This document shows positions 1-25,297 of a DNA stretch of 47,382 nt, in pieces. The notes under the pieces were generated by a model. The model ran no database searches. It saw only the letters and a program-made list of their open reading frames with translations, and was not told where the DNA came from. The translations under genes and the position numbers were made by a program. The first letter of the stretch is position 1, and each line of letters opens with the position of its first letter. This DNA is from Acidobacteriota bacterium (GTDB taxonomy: Bacteria; Acidobacteriota; Thermoanaerobaculia; Thermoanaerobaculales; Sulfomarinibacteraceae): positions 1 to 47,382 of the forward strand of contig JAJDNM010000032.1 in the NCBI GenBank assembly GCA_022340665.1, written 5' to 3'.

Positions 1-2700
1 GCCAACGATGGCATTGCCGCAGGCGCCGGCTTCGCAGTCGTCATCCTCTACTTCGCGGGCGGGTGTATCATCGGTCTCTTCTTTCTGATGAGGCAGAGGT
101 GGGTCATATGGAAGCCGGCGGTCATATGGGCCGTACTGATCGCCGGACTCCAATCGCTGGTATTTCTCAATCGGTGGCCGCTTCTGTGGATGGGGTACGA
201 CACCGCGATATCTCAGCAGACCTTTGTCCTCCAGCAGATCGCCATCGCCCTTGGACAGCTGGTAGGCATGGGAGCGATTCTCGCGCTCTCGTTTATGGCC
301 GCGGAAAGCCTCGGCAGACGCGCATTCCCGCACCACGTTCAGTTCTGGCGAACATGGTCGGTTGAGGTGACACCAACCAAGACGATCCTCGGCCAGACGG
401 TCGCGGGCTTCCTGTTGATCGGAGTGTTCTTCGCCTACGACGTCTGGCTCTACGCCTATGCCGCGAAGAACTTCGGCTGGTGGTCGCCGTCGAGCGCACT
501 TACCGATCCGAACGTGCTCGCCCACTACCTCCCGTGGCTGACCTCGATCGCCAACTCCCTGCAGGCCGGCTTCTGGGAAGAGTGTCTGTTCCGGGCGGTT
601 CCGATCGCGGGCGCGGCACTCCTCGGACGTCGCTTCGGCAAGACCTGGCTGTGGATCGCCGCAGCAATGGTGCTGCAGGCGGTGATTTTCGGAGCCGGTC
701 ACGCCAACTACCCGGCCCAACCAGCCTATGCCCGATTGGTGGAGCTGATCATCCCGGCGCTCGGTTTCGGGGGGCTCTACCTGGTCTTTGGCCTGGTGCC
801 GGCAATCGTGCTCCACTTCGCCTTCGACGTCGTCTGGTTCGCGTTGCCCCTCTTCGCCGCGGACACTCCGGGGATCTGGGTCGACCGTAGCCTGGTCATC
901 GTCCTCGCGATGGTTCCGTTGTGGATGGTGATGCTCGCGCGAGGGTATACGAGATCCTTCGGAGAAGTTCCCGAAGACGACTACAACCGCGCGTGGGAGG
1001 CGCCGCCTGCTCCGGCGCCAACCCCGGCGAGATCTGAAGTTGTCACCTCTGACCTTGCTCCGAAGGTGCGCTCCTACCTCATTTGGCTCGGCGCTGCGGG
1101 GATCGTCGTCTGGGGCCTGACGTCGAACTTCACGACCGATGTCCCGGGCCTCTCGCACAGGGACCGGGAGGCCCGATCCGCAGCGCGCGCCATGCTTGCC
1201 GAGCGCGGGATCGAGCTCGAGCCCGAATGGCGCGAGCTGAGCATGGCGGACGCACCACTGGGTCTGCAGGATCGATTCGTATGGCAGGAGGGCGGGCCCG
1301 AAGCCTATCGGGAGCTGGTCGGACGGTACCTGCCGATCCCACGAAGGATCGTTCGCTACGCGAGATTCGAAGGCGATGTCGCCGAAAGAGCGGAGGAATA
1401 CAGCGTCTTCATCGGACCGGACGGTGAGATCCAGCGAATGACTCATCAGCTACCCGAAAGCCGCCCAGGACCCGAACTCGATGAAGAGGCCGCCCGGAAA
1501 ATAGCCCAGGAGGCGGTTCGCAACCGGTACGAACTCTCCCCGGATGAGGTCGAGGAGGTGTCTGCGGAGCCGGCGCAGCTCCCAGACCGTCGCGACTGGT
1601 CCTTCGTTTTCAAAGACCGTGAAGGCTATCCGCTGGAATCCGGAGAGGCGCGGATCGCGATCGATATCGCGGGCGATGAGGTCGTGGCGACCGGTCGTTT
1701 TGTCCATATTCCCGAAGAGTGGGAGCGTGCATGGCGGAATCGTCGAGGCGTCACCCGCGTGGCCCAGATCGCATCTGTCATTCTCCTAGTCCTCCTCTAC
1801 CTCGCCGGAGCGGTTTTCGCCATCGTCCGTTGGAGCCGGCACCGATTCGCCTCCTCGACCTTTGCCGTCTTCTTCGCCTTCCTGGCGGTTGTCGGTGGTC
1901 TCCAGATCTTCAACAGCTTCCGCTCCGCGAGTGCGCAGTTCGTGACCGCCCAACCATTCAAGCTACAGACCGCCATCCTGATCGTCGGCGGCCTCATCGC
2001 CATGACCGGGATCGCCGCGGTTTCATCCCTGTTGATCGGACTCGCTCACCGGATGGTGCCGGAGCAATCCGGCAATGCCGACCGCGCCTCAATCGCGGCC
2101 GGATTCGGTCTCGGAGCGCTGCTCGCGGCCCTCGGAGCGGTTGGACAGAGCCTCGCGCCCTCGACCATGCCGTCGTGGCCAGACCTCTCCTCAGCAGGCG
2201 ACTTTCTCCCGCTCCTCGGCACTGCGTTCGGTACCGTTACCTCGTGGATCACCGGCACTGCGCTTTTCCTGCTCGCGGTCCTGACCCTCAACACGGCAAC
2301 CGACAGCTGGCGGAGACGAAAGGGTTTGGCCTCCACGGTGCTGGTGCTCTTCGGCCTCGTCGTGACCGGAAGCGAGGGCATCGAGAGCATCCCAATGTGG
2401 CTCGTGGAGGGCGGGCTCACGGGTGTCGTCCTCCTCTCTGTCTGGGTGCTCGTTCTGCGGTACCAGCCGACGATCGTTCCGACCGTCACCGCCGCCGGCA
2501 GCGCGCTCGGGGCGTTCCGCGAGGCGATCATTCGCCCGTATCCGGGCGCAGCGGCAGGCTCGGTGATCGGTGGCCTGGTGGTAGTTGCGGCGGCGTGGTG
2601 GTGGTACCGACGGCTAACTTCGGACTCGAAGGTGCAGGACGCAAGGACTTCCGTTCCGGCAATTGGCCACCAGGTGACTGAAATGGAGGAAGAGTCATGA
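1..2700 (+). CDS. CPBP-family intramembrane metalloprotease with PepSY-like region (5' partial)
   Basis: The reading frame is open from base 1, so the N-terminus lies outside the window. The first half is multi-pass and carries the CPBP (CAAX protease/bacteriocin-processing) signature: an EECLFR motif near 578-595, FGAGH near 690-705 and HFAFD near 812-828, matching the Glu-Glu-x-x-x-Arg, F-x-x-x-H and H-x-x-x-D/N metal-site motifs. A roughly 200-residue soluble stretch (about 1140-1750) holds two PepSY-like segments and lies between membrane blocks, so it is probably extracytoplasmic. Further membrane helices follow to the C-terminus. The substrate is unknown. The stop overlaps the next start (ATGA). 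Family call is firm; the PepSY likeness is by eye. Confidence 0.8.
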   Translation, partial: ANDGIAAGAGFAVVILYFAGGCIIGLFFLMRQRWVIWKPAVIWAVLIAGLQSLVFLNRWPLLWMGYDTAISQQTFVLQQIAIALGQLVGMGAILALSFMAAESLGRRAFPHHVQFWRTWSVEVTPTKTILGQTVAGFLLIGVFFAYDVWLYAYAAKNFGWWSPSSALTDPNVLAHYLPWLTSIANSLQAGFWEECLFRAVPIAGAALLGRRFGKTWLWIAAAMVLQAVIFGAGHANYPAQPAYARLVELIIPALGFGGLYLVFGLVPAIVLHFAFDVVWFALPLFAADTPGIWVDRSLVIVLAMVPLWMVMLARGYTRSFGEVPEDDYNRAWEAPPAPAPTPARSEVVTSDLAPKVRSYLIWLGAAGIVVWGLTSNFTTDVPGLSHRDREARSAARAMLAERGIELEPEWRELSMADAPLGLQDRFVWQEGGPEAYRELVGRYLPIPRRIVRYARFEGDVAERAEEYSVFIGPDGEIQRMTHQLPESRPGPELDEEAARKIAQEAVRNRYELSPDEVEEVSAEPAQLPDRRDWSFVFKDREGYPLESGEARIAIDIAGDEVVATGRFVHIPEEWERAWRNRRGVTRVAQIASVILLVLLYLAGAVFAIVRWSRHRFASSTFAVFFAFLAVVGGLQIFNSFRSASAQFVTAQPFKLQTAILIVGGLIAMTGIAAVSSLLIGLAHRMVPEQSGNADRASIAAGFGLGALLAALGAVGQSLAPSTMPSWPDLSSAGDFLPLLGTAFGTVTSWITGTALFLLAVLTLNTATDSWRRRKGLASTVLVLFGLVVTGSEGIESIPMWLVEGGLTGVVLLSVWVLVLRYQPTIVPTVTAAGSALGAFREAIIRPYPGAAAGSVIGGLVVVAAAWWWYRRLTSDSKVQDARTSVPAIGHQVTEMEEES

Positions 2701-17798: not shown

Positions 17799-17824
17799 CG
17801 TTTCAACGTTTAAACGTTTGAACG
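17799..17824. repeat. 8-nt array CGTTTCAA-CGTTTAAA-CGTTTGAA at the hisD stop
   Basis: Three octamers plus a partial one. Its centre (17805-17818) is a 14-bp perfect palindrome. The hisD stop codon TAA (minus, 17810-17812) lies inside the array. It may act as a weak bidirectional 3'-end structure between convergent genes. Confidence 0.75.
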
Positions 17825-19099
17825 TGATGACGCGCGTATTCTCTCTTTCAGCCTCAACTCGGCCGCGCGGGCATGGGCCTCCAGCCCCTCGAGGCGAGCA
17901 AGCGCGATCGAGTCTTCGACTGTCTCGCCGGCCTCCGAGAGATTATCAATCTCCATCCACGTCCGAACCCGGAGAAAATCGAAGACCGATAGCCCGCCGC
18001 GATATCGGGCCACACCGCCGGTTGGCAACGTGTGGTTGGGCCCTGCGCCGTAGTCACCGAGCACTTCGGCGCTGCCGTCGCCGATGAACAGGCCGCCCCA
18101 ACAGTCGAGCTGCGATGCCACGTCTTCGGGCCGTTCCGTCATCACCTGGAGGTGTTCGGGCGCCAACCGGCCACAGATCGAAGCCGCAGTCTCCAGATCG
18201 GGTACGACCACCGCGAAACCGTTCACCATGGCCTGCTCCGCGATCGCTCTCGTTGGAAGGGTTTCGAGCTGGCACTCTATCTCGGCATCGACACTCGCCA
18301 CCAACTCCTCCGAGGTGGACACCAGCACCGGCAGCGCGTCGGGGTCGTGTTCAGCCTGGGCCAGGAGATCGGCGGCCACCGTCGCCGCGTCGGCGTTGTC
18401 GTCAGCCAGAATCACAAGTTCGGACGGCCCGGCCAGCATGTCGATTCCGACGGTTCCAAAAACCAGCTGCTTGGCAGCCGTCACCCAGGTGTTGCCCGGC
18501 CCGACCACAAGATCGCACGGCTCGAAACCGTCGATACCGACCGCGAGCACGGCGATCGCGTGCGCCCCGCCCAGGGTAAGCACCTCGTGAGCGCCCGCCA
18601 CCGCCGCTGCGGCCAGAGTCACCGGCAACGGACGTGGAGACGCCACCACCACGCTTTTGACGCCCGCAACCCGTGCCGTCACCGCCGTCATCAGGACCGA
18701 CGACGGCAGAGGGTATCGTCCTCCCGGCGCGTAACATCCGGCCCGCCCGACCGGAGCGATGCGATGGCCGACATGCCCGCCCGGGATTTCGATCGTGGCC
18801 TCCGACAGGGCTTCGCGCTGGGCGCGCGCGAAGGTTTCGATTCGGTCAGCCGTTCGTTCGAGCAGGTCGCGATCGGCCCGCGGGATGCCCTCGAGTGCAG
18901 CGACCAGCTGTGTGCGGTCGACGACCATCGCTCCACCCTCGCGGATCTCCCCGAACTGCTCGGCGTATCGCCGCGCCGCGGCCACCCCTTCCGATCGAAT
19001 CGCCTCCACGATCTCGGCGGCAGCCTCAAGCCTCTCCCGACTCACGGGCTGGCGGTCGAGGTGCCTCACGTCTTCCGGTCGGATTCGTCGAAGCTTCAT
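17810..19099 (-). CDS. hisD: Histidinol dehydrogenase
   Basis: 429 residues from ATG at 19099, which overlaps the upstream TGA. It oxidises L-histidinol to L-histidine in two NAD-dependent steps with a Zn ion. Signature segments are present: GRAGCYAPGGRYPLPSSVLMT, GPGNTWVTAAKQLVFG, GIDMLAGPSELVILAD, LAQAEHDP, LAPEHLQVM and GDYGAGPNHTLPT. It is the last gene of the his operon. The longer frame to 19249 overlaps hisE and was not used. Confidence 0.96.
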   Translation of the reverse strand: MKLRRIRPEDVRHLDRQPVSRERLEAAAEIVEAIRSEGVAAARRYAEQFGEIREGGAMVVDRTQLVAALEGIPRADRDLLERTADRIETFARAQREALSEATIEIPGGHVGHRIAPVGRAGCYAPGGRYPLPSSVLMTAVTARVAGVKSVVVASPRPLPVTLAAAAVAGAHEVLTLGGAHAIAVLAVGIDGFEPCDLVVGPGNTWVTAAKQLVFGTVGIDMLAGPSELVILADDNADAATVAADLLAQAEHDPDALPVLVSTSEELVASVDAEIECQLETLPTRAIAEQAMVNGFAVVVPDLETAASICGRLAPEHLQVMTERPEDVASQLDCWGGLFIGDGSAEVLGDYGAGPNHTLPTGGVARYRGGLSVFDFLRVRTWMEIDNLSEAGETVEDSIALARLEGLEAHARAAELRLKERIRASSRSNV

Positions 19100-20370
19100 G
19101 ATTTCTCTCCAGAGGCAAACGTCGTGCTCCCGTCGCGGCGACGAGTCTGGAGAGAGCGGCGATCGAGCTCGGCCATCACCTCGGCCAGACTCACACCGCG
19201 GCAGGCCAACGCAGCAGCGGTGAAATAGAAAAGGTCTGCTGCCTCCCACACGACTTCGTCCTGACTCATCGCTTCACCCAGCTCTCCCGCCTCCTCGATG
19301 AGCTTGGCCGCAAGCAGATCCGGGTCTGCAGCGAGACGGGCGGTGAACGATCCCTCCGGGACGTGCTCGAGCCTCGATACGAGGCGCCGCTCGAGGGCGT
19401 TCAGGCCTCTGTCATTCCCCCAGCAGCTTCGGGTGCCCAGGTGGCAGAAGCCGTCTCCCCGCTGGCGAACAGTGAAGCGAAGCGCATCGCGGTCGCAGTC
19501 GGCATCGACTCGCAGAAGCTCCTGGGTCGCGCCCGAGGTTTCCCCCTTTATCCACAGGCCTCGCGATCGAGACTGGTAGACGCCGCGCCGCATATCGAAT
19601 GCCGTCTGCAGACTTCGAGCGCTCGAGTAGGCCAGGCCGAGGGCCGCCCCGAGCTCATCGACGACGACCGTCGGCCAGAGGCTGTCCGGCCGGTCGCTGC
19701 CGAGCGGCGCTGCAAACGCCTCGGCCAATCCGAGCCGGCCGGTGTAGATTGCCATTCCCACCTGGGCGTCGGCGCCCATCCGATCGAGGGCCGCTACTTC
19801 CTCGGCGGTCGTGATGCCGCCGGCAATCGTGACCGGTGTGCCACCTGCGGCGTCGACCACCCGTTGGGCCGCATCCAGATCGATCCCGCCGAGACGGCCC
19901 TCTCTCTCGACAAAGGTCACGAGAAAGGAGCCCACGTCCGCCTTCAGCTCTTCCAACCTGTCGAGGACCTTGGCGCCGGTGCCACGCCGCCAGCCTTCGA
20001 CAACCACCTCACCGTCCACACCGTCGAGGGCGGCCATGACCCGCTCACGGGGCAGCTGGCCGAGGACGTCCGGAGTGGCCATGGTCCCGAGAATCACCCG
20101 CTGGGCGCCCCGGTCGAGCCAGTCCTGCGCGGACTCCACAGTGCGGATGCCACCGCCGACGCGACACGGGAACCGGCGCACGATCTCGCCGATCACGCCG
20201 GCATTCGAACCGCGCCCGAGCGCAGCATCGAGGTCTATCACCGCCAGGTCACCAGCGACTGCGAAACGCTCGGCCACCGCGAGGGGATCACCAGCCTCAA
20301 GTGCCCTTTCCCGGCCACCCACGAGCTGCACCGCCTGCCCGTCCATGATGTCGATCGATGGAACGATCAC
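19096..20370 (-). CDS. hisAIE: HisA-HisI-HisE trifunctional fusion
   Basis: 424 residues from GTG at 20370, overlapping the hisF stop, with GGAGGTGAGG before it. Residues about 1-235 are the HisA isomerase barrel; about 236-330 are HisI cyclohydrolase (WPTVVVD, SRSRGLWIKGETSG, DADCDRDAL, FCHLGTRSCWG with its Zn Cys/Asp ligands); about 335-424 are HisE pyrophosphohydrolase (LIEEAGELGEA, WEAADLFYF). The HisA part is of the eukaryotic HIS6 type: IDIMDGQAVQLVGG and FVEREGRLGGID replace the usual bacterial TDIxRDG. One chain thus covers steps 2, 3 and 4. The unusual fusion is uninterrupted and in frame. Confidence 0.92.
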   Translation of the reverse strand: MIVPSIDIMDGQAVQLVGGRERALEAGDPLAVAERFAVAGDLAVIDLDAALGRGSNAGVIGEIVRRFPCRVGGGIRTVESAQDWLDRGAQRVILGTMATPDVLGQLPRERVMAALDGVDGEVVVEGWRRGTGAKVLDRLEELKADVGSFLVTFVEREGRLGGIDLDAAQRVVDAAGGTPVTIAGGITTAEEVAALDRMGADAQVGMAIYTGRLGLAEAFAAPLGSDRPDSLWPTVVVDELGAALGLAYSSARSLQTAFDMRRGVYQSRSRGLWIKGETSGATQELLRVDADCDRDALRFTVRQRGDGFCHLGTRSCWGNDRGLNALERRLVSRLEHVPEGSFTARLAADPDLLAAKLIEEAGELGEAMSQDEVVWEAADLFYFTAAALACRGVSLAEVMAELDRRSLQTRRRDGSTTFASGEKS

Positions 20371-21119
20371 AGCCTCACCTCCATGCCGAGCGCCGCCAGC
20401 CGCCGCTTGATGGCCGACACTGTGGTGTGGCCATCGTGCAGGATCGAAGCCGCCAGGACCGCGTCCGCTCCCGCCAACAGGGCCTGGGCCATGTGCTCCG
20501 CAGTCTCGGCTCCGCCGGACGCGATCACCGGAACGCCCACCGCGCCGCAGACCGCCTCGAGGAGTTCGAGGTCGTAGCCCGATTGCGTACCGTCGCGATC
20601 CCAGCTGGTGAGAAGGACCTCGCCGGCACCGGCCGCTACCGCGGTCGTTGCCCAATCGACGACGTCAAGCTCCAACCGGTCACGTCCGGAGCGGACGACC
20701 ACCCGCCAGCCGTCGCCCACCCGAGCCGCGTCGAGCGCCAGAACCGTGCACTGGCAACCGAACTCCTCCGCCATCTCGGTCAAGAGCTCCGGACGGGACA
20801 CTGCAGCCGTGTTGACGCCGACCTTGTCGGCACCGGCCTCGAGCAGCTCCCTCGCATCGGCGAGAGCCCGAACTCCGCCGCCGACGGTGAGCGGAATCGG
20901 CAGCCGCCGCCGCACCGCGCGCACGGTTTCCAGCGCGTTGGCCCGTCCCTCCGGCGTCGCACTGACGTCCAGCAGGACCAGCTCATCCGCTCCCTGGTCG
21001 GCGTACATTTCGGCCAGCTCCACCGGATCGCCCGCATCGCGCAAGGCCTGGAACTGGATACCCTTGACGACCCTCCCGGCGTGGACATCGAGGCACGGAA
21101 TGACCCTTCGCATCAACAT
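20367..21119 (-). CDS. hisF: Imidazole glycerol phosphate synthase, cyclase subunit
   Basis: 250 residues. TIM barrel with the HisF catalytic Asp in IPCLDVHAGRVVKG and the second in LTSWDRDGTQSGYD; the phosphate loops (VGGGVRAL, ASGGAET) are intact. It forms ImGP and AICAR from PRFAR with ammonia made by HisH, encoded just upstream and overlapping. Two ATGs (21119 and 21113) are possible; GGAG is better spaced for 21119. Confidence 0.96.
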   Translation of the reverse strand: MLMRRVIPCLDVHAGRVVKGIQFQALRDAGDPVELAEMYADQGADELVLLDVSATPEGRANALETVRAVRRRLPIPLTVGGGVRALADARELLEAGADKVGVNTAAVSRPELLTEMAEEFGCQCTVLALDAARVGDGWRVVVRSGRDRLELDVVDWATTAVAAGAGEVLLTSWDRDGTQSGYDLELLEAVCGAVGVPVIASGGAETAEHMAQALLAGADAVLAASILHDGHTTVSAIKRRLAALGMEVRL

Positions 21120-21727
21120 TGCGTCTCACTCCTACAGGCAAGCCAGCGCGTGATCAGCCGCTCTCCCCACGCCCCCGAAAGCTCCGGGTGAAACTGACAT
21201 CCGAGCACGTTGCCTCGCTCCACAGCGGCAACGAACTGGCCGCCATGGGAACTCCAGGCGACGTTCCAGCCTGGGGGTTGGTCGGTGATCCGGTAGGAGT
21301 TGGCAAAGTAGGCAACTCCATCGCTCAGAAGATGGCAGTTACTGTCGGCAGCTATCGAATTCCACCCCAGCTGAGGCACGACGACCGAATCCGGGTAGCG
21401 TGACGCCCGCACCTCGAGGATCCCGAGCCCGCCGGTGTCCATCCCCTCGTCGCTGCCCTCCGCCAGCAGATGGAGTCCGAGGCACACGGCGAGCGTGGGC
21501 AGGTCTTCCGTGACCCGAAAGCGGATGGCCTCGCCGAGACCGTTCTTCCCGAGGCGTTCGGCGACAGGCGCGAATGCCCCGACGCCCGGCAGCACGACCC
21601 GTTTCGCATTTCTCACCGCAAAGGCGTTGTCCGTGACCTGCACCGATCGGCCGACCCGTTCAAAGCCCGCCACCACCGAGGCGAGATTGGCCGCACCTGT
21701 GCGCACGATCAAAACGTCTGCGCTCAT
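21113..21727 (-). CDS. hisH: Imidazole glycerol phosphate synthase, glutaminase subunit
   Basis: 204 residues. Class I glutamine amidotransferase: oxyanion segment LPGVGAF, nucleophile Cys in AVCLGLHLLAEGS, and catalytic His/Glu in CQFHPELSG. The nucleophile elbow reads VCLGLH rather than the common ICLGMQ but keeps the Cys and Gly. It supplies ammonia to HisF. It overlaps hisF by a few bases and lies 2 bp after hisB. Confidence 0.95.
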   Translation of the reverse strand: MSADVLIVRTGAANLASVVAGFERVGRSVQVTDNAFAVRNAKRVVLPGVGAFAPVAERLGKNGLGEAIRFRVTEDLPTLAVCLGLHLLAEGSDEGMDTGGLGILEVRASRYPDSVVVPQLGWNSIAADSNCHLLSDGVAYFANSYRITDQPPGWNVAWSSHGGQFVAAVERGNVLGCQFHPELSGAWGERLITRWLACRSETQC

Positions 21728-21729
21728 CG

Positions 21730-22329
21730 TCAGCCGCCCGCATCGAGAACGCCCTTCGTACTGGGCACTCTGCCGTCATCGGCCGCGGCCATTGCCGCTC
21801 CGAAGGCCAGGGCCAGGGCCTTGAACGCGGCCTCCGCACGGTGGTGATCGTTCTCGCCCCGCAATACATCGACGTGCACTGCAGCTCGCAGGCTGATAGC
21901 CAGGGAGACCAGGAAATGAATGGCGTTTTCGCTCGCCAGACCGCCCAGCATCTCCCGCTCGAGGCCAAGATGGATTTCCGGCCACGGGCGCCCCGAGAGA
22001 TCGACGACTGCGCGCGCCAGCGCCTCGTCGAGCGGCGCGTGCGCCGAGCCGAAGCGCGCGATACCGGCGCGGTCACCCAGTGCACGATCGAGCGCCGCGC
22101 CCAGGGCGAGGGCACAATCCTCGGCGGTGTGGTGATCATCGACCTCGAGGTCTCCTTTGCACTCGAGCTCGAGATCCCAGCCTGCATGGAACGCGAGGCT
22201 CATCAGCATGTGGTCGAGAAAGCCGATTCCGGTGGCGACCGAGATCTGGCGCCCACCGTCAATTGTGACCGCTCCATTGACAATCGTTTCCCCTGTTGCA
22301 CGTTCTATCTTCGCGGTTCGCCTTTTCAT
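21730..22329 (-). CDS. hisB: Imidazoleglycerol-phosphate dehydratase
   Basis: 199 residues from ATG at 22329, which overlaps the upstream stop. Single-domain dehydratase with both metal-binding His-rich motifs (FLDHML, DDHHTAEDCALALG; then ENDHHRAEAAFKALA) and the C-terminal STKG. The phosphatase half found in enterobacterial HisB is absent; that activity is likely provided by the HAD domain fused to HisC next door. Confidence 0.96.
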   Translation of the reverse strand: MKRRTAKIERATGETIVNGAVTIDGGRQISVATGIGFLDHMLMSLAFHAGWDLELECKGDLEVDDHHTAEDCALALGAALDRALGDRAGIARFGSAHAPLDEALARAVVDLSGRPWPEIHLGLEREMLGGLASENAIHFLVSLAISLRAAVHVDVLRGENDHHRAEAAFKALALAFGAAMAAADDGRVPSTKGVLDAGG

Positions 22330-24038
22330 GGCATCAGCTCCTCTATCTCCTGTGGATCGCCCATCACCCATGCCGCTCCCGCGGTCCGCATCGCGTGCTC
22401 AGCCGACCCCGGATCGTCACCGGCCGCGGCAAGGCCGATCGGAAGCACGCCCGCCCCACCGGCAGCGCGGAGATCATCGGGCGTATCACCGACCATCCAT
22501 GCGCTCGAGACTCCCATTCTCTCGAGCGCGAGATGCACTGGCGCCGGGTCCGGTTTCGGCGGCGCGTCTTCCATGCACACGACCGTCGAGAACAGGTCCT
22601 CTACGCCCTGCTCCTCCAGGAAACGCAGGGCATCAGACCGGGGGCGTCCGGTGACCACACCGAGCGGAAACTCTGCCGCGAGCCGCTCGAGGCCGGCGCG
22701 GCCAATCCGCAAGGTCTCGTATCGGCGGAATCCCGGTGCGTCCTCAGTCCCCTGATACAGGGATTCGAAGTGCTCGGTGACCTCGGCCAGCGGGACACTG
22801 ACTCCACGTTCCTCCAGCAGGCGTCGCGTCAGCTCCCAATCGTTGGCCGCGTTACCACGTGTCTTGGCCCGAGCTACATCTTCGGTCGAGAGATCCACAC
22901 CCCATGCGGCCGCAGTCTCGATGATGGCGCGCCGATAGGATTGCGAGACATCAGCCAGAACACCATCCATGTCGAAGAGCAGAGCACCCGGGGCGAGAAC
23001 GGTCTGTAAAGCTCGCCTGAGACGATCGAAGTTCGCCTCGTCACCCGGCATGGTGATCCGCAGCCAGCCATCGAGATCGGTCCGCCCTGGGAATCTGCGC
23101 ACCGAGATTCCGAACGCGCCGAGACTCCGCCAAACCAGCTCCGAATTTTCGAACCGCGCGAACACGAAGCTCGCTTCCGACGGCAGTACCTCGACGCCGA
23201 GATCAACCAAGAACTCGGTCAGGGCATCGCGTTGCTCTCGGATCAACGCCACGCGGGCGCGGTCCGGGCCACCTTGGAGCGCAAACAGCGTGGCTTCCAC
23301 GGACAGGGTCGAGACCGGAAACGGCAGGCCGGCACGCCGCAGCCAGTCGATCACCCGGGGGTCGGCGATCGCGCAGCCCACTCTCAGGCCCGCACAGCCC
23401 CACGCCTTCGAAAAGGTCCTCACGACGACGGTGTTCGGGTACTCCTTCGCAACCGGCGCGAGGTCGTTTTCCGGGTCCGTGAAATCGACGTACGCCTGGT
23501 CGAGGAGCACGAGGGTTTCCGGCAGGCGCTCGAGCAGGGACCTGAACGCGGATGGTGAAGCGAAGGCGCCGGTCGGGTTCGAAGGACTGACGACTGCCAC
23601 CAGGCCGCAGTCATCTCCGGCCAGGCGGCACACCTCGTCGACCGGGTAGTCGCCGCTCCACCAAGGGATTTCGCTGATCTCGGCACCGGCCAGAACAGCG
23701 AACCGCCGGATCATCCCGTAGCTGGGTGTGGCGAGAACCGCTCGACGCCCCGGTGCCACCGCACAGCGAACGGTTCTCTCGAGGGCGTCGTCCGCCCCGT
23801 TGGTGACCAGGACCCATTCCGAATCGACTCCCAAGAATTCGGCGATCGCCGCTTCGATCTCCCGATACTCGGGATACCGATTGATCTGTAGCTCGTCCCC
23901 GGCGAGTGCAGGTGGAGGGGCAAGGCTTTCGTTGAAATCGAGCACCAGGTCCGGGTCGATCCCCGGGCGGTCGACGACGTAGGGGAAGAGCCCTTGGACT
24001 ATGGGGTTCGGCCGGACCAACAATTCCTTGTCTCCCAT
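22326..24038 (-). CDS. hisC: Histidinol-phosphate aminotransferase fused to a HAD phosphatase
   Basis: 570 residues. Residues 1-350 are a class I/II aminotransferase of the HisC type: NESLAPPP, TNGADDAL, SPSNPTGAF, DQAYVDF and the PLP lysine in TFSKAWGCAGLRVG (Lys211). Residues about 352-570 are a HAD subfamily IA hydrolase: LLFDMDGVLAD (Asp356, Asp358), VVTGRPRSD, PPKPDPAP and MVGDTPDDLRAA. Together these would convert imidazole acetol phosphate to histidinol phosphate and then histidinol, two successive steps. The phosphatase role is inferred from the fusion and operon; no other HisN or HisJ candidate lies in the operon. Confidence 0.9.
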   Translation of the reverse strand: MGDKELLVRPNPIVQGLFPYVVDRPGIDPDLVLDFNESLAPPPALAGDELQINRYPEYREIEAAIAEFLGVDSEWVLVTNGADDALERTVRCAVAPGRRAVLATPSYGMIRRFAVLAGAEISEIPWWSGDYPVDEVCRLAGDDCGLVAVVSPSNPTGAFASPSAFRSLLERLPETLVLLDQAYVDFTDPENDLAPVAKEYPNTVVVRTFSKAWGCAGLRVGCAIADPRVIDWLRRAGLPFPVSTLSVEATLFALQGGPDRARVALIREQRDALTEFLVDLGVEVLPSEASFVFARFENSELVWRSLGAFGISVRRFPGRTDLDGWLRITMPGDEANFDRLRRALQTVLAPGALLFDMDGVLADVSQSYRRAIIETAAAWGVDLSTEDVARAKTRGNAANDWELTRRLLEERGVSVPLAEVTEHFESLYQGTEDAPGFRRYETLRIGRAGLERLAAEFPLGVVTGRPRSDALRFLEEQGVEDLFSTVVCMEDAPPKPDPAPVHLALERMGVSSAWMVGDTPDDLRAAGGAGVLPIGLAAAGDDPGSAEHAMRTAGAAWVMGDPQEIEELMP

Positions 24039-24046
24039 CTGACCTC

Positions 24047-24910
24047 CTACGCAACGATCTGAGCCAGGCGAGTGACGACGATATCCGATCCGCCCGCAGC
24101 CTTGATCCGCGGAACGACCCCCGGCAGGTCTACCCGCGGCACAGCCGCCTTGACGGCATACCCCTCACCGCCGGCCAGCGGCGACACCGTCGGTTGGCGC
24201 ATGCAGGGCAACACCTCGAGCAGGTCGGGAAGCTTCTCCTCGGAGACATTGACCTCGACCATCACTCTGTGCCGCGCTTCGAGAACGGATTCAACCAGCA
24301 GCACCAGATCTTCGATTTGCGATCTGAGGCCGGGGTCATCGAGTGCCCTCGGGCAGGCATAGAGCCTGGTTGAGGACTCGGCGAGAACATCGACCACCTC
24401 GAGGTCGTTGGCTTCGAGGGTCGAACCGGTTGCGGTGTTGTCGACAATCAAGTCGGCATCTTCAGGTGGAAAGACCTCGGTCGCTCCGTACGACCTGACG
24501 AAATGCGCGTCGAGCCCACGACCTTCAATCCATTTTCGCGCCAGCCGTTCGTACTCTGAAGCGACCACCAGGCGCCGCAGAGGAAGCTCACCATCGACCA
24601 GCAGGGACGCCGGCGCAGCTGCCACCACGCGCACCGGATCGAGTCCGGTGTCGAGCAGCTCCACGAGGTCGCCGTCGAGCTCGGCGACCCAATCCGCCCC
24701 TGCGAAGCCGAGATCTCTCGAGCCCGCGTGCAGCATCTCGACGATGTTCTGTGGTTTGAGGATCTTCAGCTCGCATCCCGCGAGGCTGATGTGAGGCCTG
24801 TAGCTCCGCGCCGTCTGGCTGATGTGAATTCCGGCCTCGTCGAGGAGAGAGAAGACGCCGTCGTACATCCTGCCCTTTGGCACTGCCAATTTCAGAGTGG
24901 TCGGAACCAT
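24047..24910 (-). CDS. hisG: ATP phosphoribosyltransferase, long form
   Basis: 287 residues: catalytic domain (LAVPKGRMYDGVFSLL, LGFAGADWV, ADLIVDNTATGSTLEAN) plus the C-terminal ACT-like regulatory domain (about 212-287, MVEVNVSEEKLPDLLEVLPCM). The long form is self-contained and feedback-inhibited by histidine; no HisZ is required. First structural gene of the operon, 34 bp after the attenuator T-run, with GGAAAGG before the ATG. Confidence 0.95.
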   Translation of the reverse strand: MVPTTLKLAVPKGRMYDGVFSLLDEAGIHISQTARSYRPHISLAGCELKILKPQNIVEMLHAGSRDLGFAGADWVAELDGDLVELLDTGLDPVRVVAAAPASLLVDGELPLRRLVVASEYERLARKWIEGRGLDAHFVRSYGATEVFPPEDADLIVDNTATGSTLEANDLEVVDVLAESSTRLYACPRALDDPGLRSQIEDLVLLVESVLEARHRVMVEVNVSEEKLPDLLEVLPCMRQPTVSPLAGGEGYAVKAAVPRVDLPGVVPRIKAAGGSDIVVTRLAQIVA

Positions 24911-24943
24911 GTTTTTCCTTTCCCGACCTCGCGCGGCGCCGAC

Positions 24944-24971
24944 AAAAAAAGACGCCGGCGGGGCCGGCGTC
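24944..24971 (-). terminator. Intrinsic terminator / attenuator upstream of hisG
   Basis: On the minus strand a 9-bp perfect GC stem (24963-24971 with 24951-24959), 3-nt loop, and seven T at 24950-24944. It lies between the His-rich leader peptide and hisG. A GGGGCC at 25007-25012, just after the leader His codons, can pair with GGCCCC in the terminator (24960-24965), giving an alternative antiterminator structure. Confidence 0.9.
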
Positions 24972-25000
24972 GTGGTTTCGGTCTGAATGTACCTACACCG

Positions 25001-25063
25001 TCACCTGGCCCCAGCTGGAGTATGTCCATGATGGTGGTGGTGGTGATGACAAGTCATTGCCAT
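25001..25063 (-). CDS. hisL: Histidine operon leader peptide (attenuator)
   Basis: A 20-residue reading frame on the minus strand: M-A-M-T-C, seven consecutive His, then G-H-T-P-A-G-A-R and TGA. Eight of 20 codons are His (CAT/CAC mixed). It lies 30 bp before a strong intrinsic terminator and 90 bp before hisG. This is the arrangement of ribosome-mediated attenuation: with enough His-tRNA the terminator forms; with scarcity the ribosome stalls on the His run and the operon is read. The mechanism is inferred from layout; the His run itself is direct observation. Confidence 0.9.
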   Translation of the reverse strand: MAMTCHHHHHHHGHTPAGAR

Positions 25064-25079
25064 ATGCAATCCAAACGCG

Positions 25080-25108
25080 AACCTACCCCGAATCCATTCC
25101 CGTGTCAA
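25080..25108 (-). promoter_or_regulatory. Promoter of the his operon
   Basis: On the minus strand a perfect TTGACA (25103-25108), 17-bp spacer and TAGGTT (25080-25085). Transcription would start near 25073, about 10 nt before the leader ATG, so the leader peptide has little room for a ribosome site. Confidence 0.5.
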
Positions 25109-25135
25109 TTCCACTCGCCCAACAGACTCTCAATC

Positions 25136-25205
25136 CTAGATGCTAGATGCTGGATGCTGGATGCTGGATGCTGGATGCTGGATGTTGGATATTCGATGTT
25201 GGATG
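25136..25205. repeat. 7-nt tandem array CTGGATG (10 units)
   Basis: Ten heptads from CTAGATG through CTGGATG to TTGGATG. A degenerate complementary counterpart appears at about 25250-25283, ending near the stop codon of the neighbouring gene at 25298, with GGGTGG and GGGCGG between or beside. Same design as the other heptad elements. Confidence 0.85.
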
Positions 25206-25297
25206 CGCCGGTATTTTCGGTTTCAGGCTACCTCGTCGACAGCGCGGGTGGATCGAGGATCCAGGACCGAGCATCGGGCTCAAGGTTGGGCGGTGGG

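Follow-up and report, generated by a model that had tools for sequence, protein, structure and literature searches.

A predicted ribosome-mediated histidine attenuator upstream of the his operon in an Acidobacteriota bacterium

The his operon of an Acidobacteriota bacterium is very probably controlled by a ribosome-mediated transcription attenuator of the trp/his type. The operon lies on contig JAJDNM010000032.1 (assembly GCA_022340665.1), in a stretch of 47,382 nucleotides that was analysed as a whole and is referred to here as the window. By its closest HisG relatives, the source genome is of the Thermoanaerobaculia type. It is well supported that this represents a known kind of switch, ordinary in principle, in a little-studied phylum. 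Such switches are hardly annotated in Acidobacteriota, and the finding assigns this leader a specific putative function, with a design that is widely shared. From the comparative side, the proposed attenuation is supported by the identity of the His run, a near-constant spacing to the terminator, mutually exclusive pairings and a complete his operon.

Parts of the leader and their alternative pairings

The features, read on the minus strand in the direction of transcription, are the following.

25080..25108, minus strand: promoter, TTGACA (25108-25103), 17 nt and TAGGTT (25085-25080), assigned from sequence and conservation in relatives
25001..25063, minus strand: leader peptide ORF MAMTCHHHHHHHGHTPAGAR, with its ATG at 25063 and stop codon TGA at 25003-25001, assigned from sequence and from the conservation of His-run leaders upstream of hisG
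25028..25048, minus strand: seven consecutive His codons (CAT CAC CAC CAC CAC CAT CAT), the putative control codons and also the 5′ strand of the protector hairpin
24996..25012, minus strand: segment 2, which spans the leader stop codon and pairs either as protector or as antiterminator, assigned by folding
24960..24969, minus strand: segment 3, CGCCGGCCCC, the 3′ strand of the antiterminator, overlapping the 5′ arm and loop of the terminator, assigned by folding and pair conservation
24944..24971, minus strand: intrinsic terminator, a 9-bp stem (24971-24951) followed by T7 (24950-24944), found by a terminator scan
24047..24910, minus strand: hisG, long form (HisG plus HisG_C), the first gene of the his operon (Pfam PF01634 and PF08029)
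17810..24038, minus strand: the rest of the his operon (Pfam)

The his operon downstream of the leader is complete, with some genes fused according to Pfam. Starting from the hisG ATG at 24910, hisG is followed by a hisC-HAD fusion, hisB (IGPD), hisH, a gene of the hisA/hisF type, a His_biosynth-hisI-hisE fusion and hisD. In the first fusion, a hisC-like aminotransferase is joined to a HAD phosphatase domain (22326-24038, minus strand). The other is a single frame of 519 aa (19096-20655, minus strand), in which a second His_biosynth barrel is joined to PRA-CH and PRA-PH (hisI, hisE).

The leader ORF reads ATG GCA ATG ACT TGT (CAY)x7 GGA CAT ACT CCA GCT GGG GCC AGG TGA, with a second in-frame ATG at 25057. 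Its 20 codons, with seven consecutive histidines plus one further histidine, are as the initial annotation had read them. A pattern search of the 3.95-Mb assembly returned this ORF as the sole occurrence of (CAY)x6 or longer. A search of the genome for similar leader ORFs at three further genes (HMGL-like, TPP enzyme and chorismate-binding) gave nothing convincing.

Between this ORF and hisG lies the intrinsic terminator, whose GC-rich stem has the form GACGCCGGC-CCC-GCCGGCGTC (24971-24951); the stem, its T7 tract and the hisG gene beyond it are arranged as first described. Folding of the leader RNA, suggested at the outset as a check, recovers mutually exclusive protector, antiterminator and terminator pairings, that is, three alternating hairpins in the classical 1:2, 2:3, 3:4 design. 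Segment 2 is shared by two of these. As the protector, it pairs with the His codons at 25036-25030; in relatives this pairing is formed by CACCAUC with GAUGGUG, and the window copy has one mismatch. As the antiterminator, GGGGCCAGGTG (25012-25002) pairs with the 5′ arm of the terminator. This helix comprises 10 bp between GGGGCC(A)GGTG (25012-25002) and CGCCGGCCCC (24969-24960), and the GGGGCC motif earlier suspected of being an antiterminator is borne out as part of this longer strand.

The full RNA folds into the protector and the terminator. When a stall is simulated, with the 5′ part covered and the 3′ arm of the terminator still to be transcribed, the partner of CGCCGGCCCC is GGGGCC(A)GGUG instead, and most of the relatives that were folded show the same exchange. 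The terminator hairpin is present in the fold of the window leader alone, ending at the T run. Against the attenuator, the full-length minimum free energy structure of the window copy, computed with sequence beyond the T run, lacks the terminator hairpin as such.

From these parts, their conservation and their alternative pairings in silico, we infer the following course of events in the cell, from initiation through stalling to termination. The RNA would start approximately 10 nt before the leader ATG. When charged tRNA-His is plentiful, the ribosome would translate all seven His codons, reach the UGA and cover the segment around the stop codon. With this segment covered, the terminator at 24971-24944 would halt transcription before hisG. 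A shortage of charged tRNA-His would instead make the ribosome stall on the His codons and break the protector hairpin. This would free GGGGCCAGGUG to pair with CGCCGGCCCC, prevent the terminator and allow transcription of the his operon. If no ribosome occupies the leader, the His codons would pair with the stop-codon segment as the protector, and the terminator would form.

An alternative is that the leader works mainly through translation, by re-initiation or by masking of the hisG ribosome binding site, rather than through termination. Translational variants of attenuators have been described (PMC9413887), and several leader loci carry no recognisable terminator (L049, L073, L108 and L130-L133). 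This mode of action is nonetheless improbable, as the window and 52 of the 60 leader loci compared below have an intrinsic terminator ending in a T run, and the start of hisG lies 41 nt beyond the terminator in a AGGAAAAAC-ATG context of its own.

Conservation of the leader upstream of hisG

Leaders in relatives were compared, as the initial annotation had advised, and the case that it named as contrary evidence, a conserved hisG with no His run or terminator, is not what the close relatives present. All eight with available upstream DNA (L010-L016 and L043, HisG 70-77% identical) have a short His-run ORF located approximately 90-120 nt before hisG. A strict scan detects the terminator in seven of the eight, and a looser scan adds L016.

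On a wider scale, 103 non-redundant loci from five or more phyla were compared, all with a HisG identity of 40% or more, and a His-run leader precedes hisG at 60 of them. Where the identity is 60% or more, leaders are present at 49 of the 86 loci (8 of 1,720 shuffled controls), and in the 40-60% range at 11 of the 17 (3 of 340). The pooled controls thus give 11 of 2,060, or approximately 0.5%. Upstream of distant HisG (<40%), no leader was found at any of 18 loci. The leader and the terminator occur together: an intrinsic terminator lies before hisG at 52 of the 60 loci with a leader versus 5 of the 43 without one (odds ratio 49, p = 1e-14). The distance from the leader stop codon to the terminator is mostly 23-43 nt.

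Among the 60 leaders, the His run is written in 57 different CAC/CAT patterns (187 CAT and 140 CAC). As these patterns vary freely, selection would act on histidine and not on the DNA. In another reading, the ORF encodes a functional small peptide, for example one that binds metals, and lies upstream of hisG by happenstance; a run of seven histidines can bind metals, and a leader peptide that acts in trans has a precedent in peTrpL (PMC7298713). This is very improbable, however, as the His run alone is common to all leaders, the residues at both termini vary, the bases of the antiterminator account for the GxR at the C-terminus in the close relatives, and the ORF is tied to a terminator and the his operon. 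The least credible origin is a chance CAY repeat beside an unrelated terminator that belongs to the upstream gene. In its favour, the region upstream is rich in short ATCCAGC repeats, of a kind that recurs about fifty times in the genome. The relatives refute it, as the leader is conserved in several phyla while its codons vary; in addition, (CAY)x6 is unique in the genome.

The protector and terminator pairs are kept in 90% of alignment cells and the antiterminator pairs in 89%; sliding the partners by 1-3 columns lowers retention to 28-61%. Covariation is limited, with mostly invariant helices and few truly compensatory changes, and the excess over the shuffle control is slight. Compared with shuffled versions of segment 2 at 53 loci, the protector pairing has a mean z of -2.0 and the antiterminator a mean z of -1.1. 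On average across these loci, the antiterminator, which is favoured by the stall and exclusive with the terminator, pairs better than shuffles, with weak cases among them; in a minority, such as some Gemmatimonadota (L103, L104 and L109), it does not surpass the shuffles by this simple measure. A covariance model built from 12 sequences, of Acidobacteriota plus L117 (Myxococcota), also detects the element before hisG in other phyla, with E-values down to 7e-17.

On a tree of 101 HisG proteins, the leader is clustered but patchy, with at least 17 changes versus 33 for shuffled labels. Such a distribution may mean that the leader was gained or lost repeatedly or was transferred, or that the scan missed some leaders. 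The many distant hisG genes with neither leader nor terminator are other lineages that have lost or never had the device. At three Gemmatimonadota loci (L105, L116 and L118), a terminator lies upstream of hisG, the His run is below the threshold and the covariance model matches weakly; these possibly carry a shorter or diverged leader.

Promoter spacing and the start of the leader

The promoter first proposed, TTGACA-17-TAGGTT, is present on the minus strand and its pattern is kept in relatives, with a weak -10 box. TAGGTT matches TATAAT at three of six positions, and for this reason a strict consensus scan of the window copy reports no promoter. The weak -10 box counts against the attenuator in the window copy. 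In relatives, TTGAC-16..18-TAnnnT (or GATAAT) is kept at the promoter position; among nine aligned sequences at the level of the class, TTGAC is invariant and the -10 box is TAnnnT or GATAAT. Just upstream of the promoter, at 25140-25205, there are short direct repeats of an ATCCAGC unit.

The position of the promoter relative to the leader was studied in 59 leaders that begin with ATG or GTG, by a search blind to the position of the start codon. The best promoter ends 5-10 nt (counted after the -10 box) before the start codon in 49 of the 59, versus 8.5% with shuffled upstream DNA, and its mean score is 9.4 versus 4.4. The modes of this spacing are 7, 9 and 6 nt. The distance from a -10 box to the transcription start is usually 6-7 nt. 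Together with the 5-10 nt spacing, this would place the start codon at or within a few nucleotides of +1. It therefore appears, from promoter spacing, that the leader ORF is leaderless in most relatives.

The window copy is an exception, with 16 nt from the -10 box to the ATG and 10 nt to an in-frame TTG, and agrees with the earlier estimate that the leader begins only about 10 nt after the transcription start. Another exception is L014, with 21 nt from the -10 box to the start codon.

Across the assembly, TTGACA-TAnnnT-5..10-ATG occurs 11 times, and a reversed control gives no occurrences. Three of the 11 sites, e.g., L148, L151 and L152, precede long ORFs that resemble transcription regulators. 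Leaderless starts are therefore plausible in this organism, and the regulator-like ORFs with a 5-10 nt spacing suggest ordinary leaderless genes in the source genome.

It is rather probable that, in Acidobacteriota, Planctomycetota, Gemmatimonadota, Myxococcota and some Pseudomonadota, the prevailing his attenuator is one whose leader peptide is read from a leaderless RNA, and that one Acidobacteriota family has his attenuators in tandem, acting in two stages. If the leaderless interpretation holds, initiation at the first base of the RNA would be part of the sensing. The repeated spacing of approximately 7 nt points to leaderless initiation as the usual start of the leader peptide in these phyla.

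Relation to known attenuators and tandem units

The hisL leaders of E. coli and Salmonella have seven consecutive His codons before hisG, exclusive hairpins and an intrinsic terminator (PMC3896937). The initial annotation had seen a full attenuator of this enterobacterial type. The mechanism stands: a His-run leader before hisG, mutually exclusive hairpins and an intrinsic terminator are shared. Membership of the RNA family does not. The Rfam His_leader family (RF00514) gives no match at the gathering score in the window or in 13 related loci, and none at E up to 10 within 24800-25250. The window copy, from an Acidobacteriota bacterium, differs from the enterobacterial leaders in its very short 5′ UTR and in its hairpin sequences, and its relatives mostly appear to have leaderless ORFs. 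As for a histidine T-box, the Rfam scan returned no T-box match.

His-leader attenuators with runs of three to five His codons have been proposed in some Firmicutes (PMC9413887), and hisS/hisZ leaders have been reported in bacilli (PMC2965389). Like the present leader, the Firmicutes leaders are His-run peptides outside RF00514 with a terminator and an antiterminator, found by comparative genomics. Compared by description only, the leaders of PMC9413887 differ in having three to five histidines, whereas there are seven here, in another phylum.

Leaderless leader ORFs of attenuators have been mapped experimentally for trpL of S. meliloti (PMC7298713) and for leuL, trpL and ilvL of Streptomyces lividans (PMC8079986). 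In these, the leader start codon lies at the 5′ end of the transcript, as promoter spacing suggests for the relatives studied here. They differ in responding to other amino acids, and the window copy would have approximately 10 nt before its ATG. No description of a his leader in Acidobacteriota was found in the literature searched; older comparative surveys (Vitreschak 2004, Lopatovskaya 2010) could contain one, and priority is not established.

The literature search likewise returned nothing on tandem attenuators of his operons, which may give steeper or two-stage control. In one Acidobacteriota family (f33, L123-L126), two units of a His leader and terminator are arranged in series within the 450 nt upstream of hisG. 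In L124, MVTATLSRLHHHHHPIIGPGTGAHAV with CCCCCGGCCAAGGCCGGGGGTTTTT is followed by a longer ORF ending in FHAHHHHHFHLPSG with ACCCGGGCTCCCGTGCCCGGGTTTTT. The covariance model matches both of the tandem units in L123 and L124.
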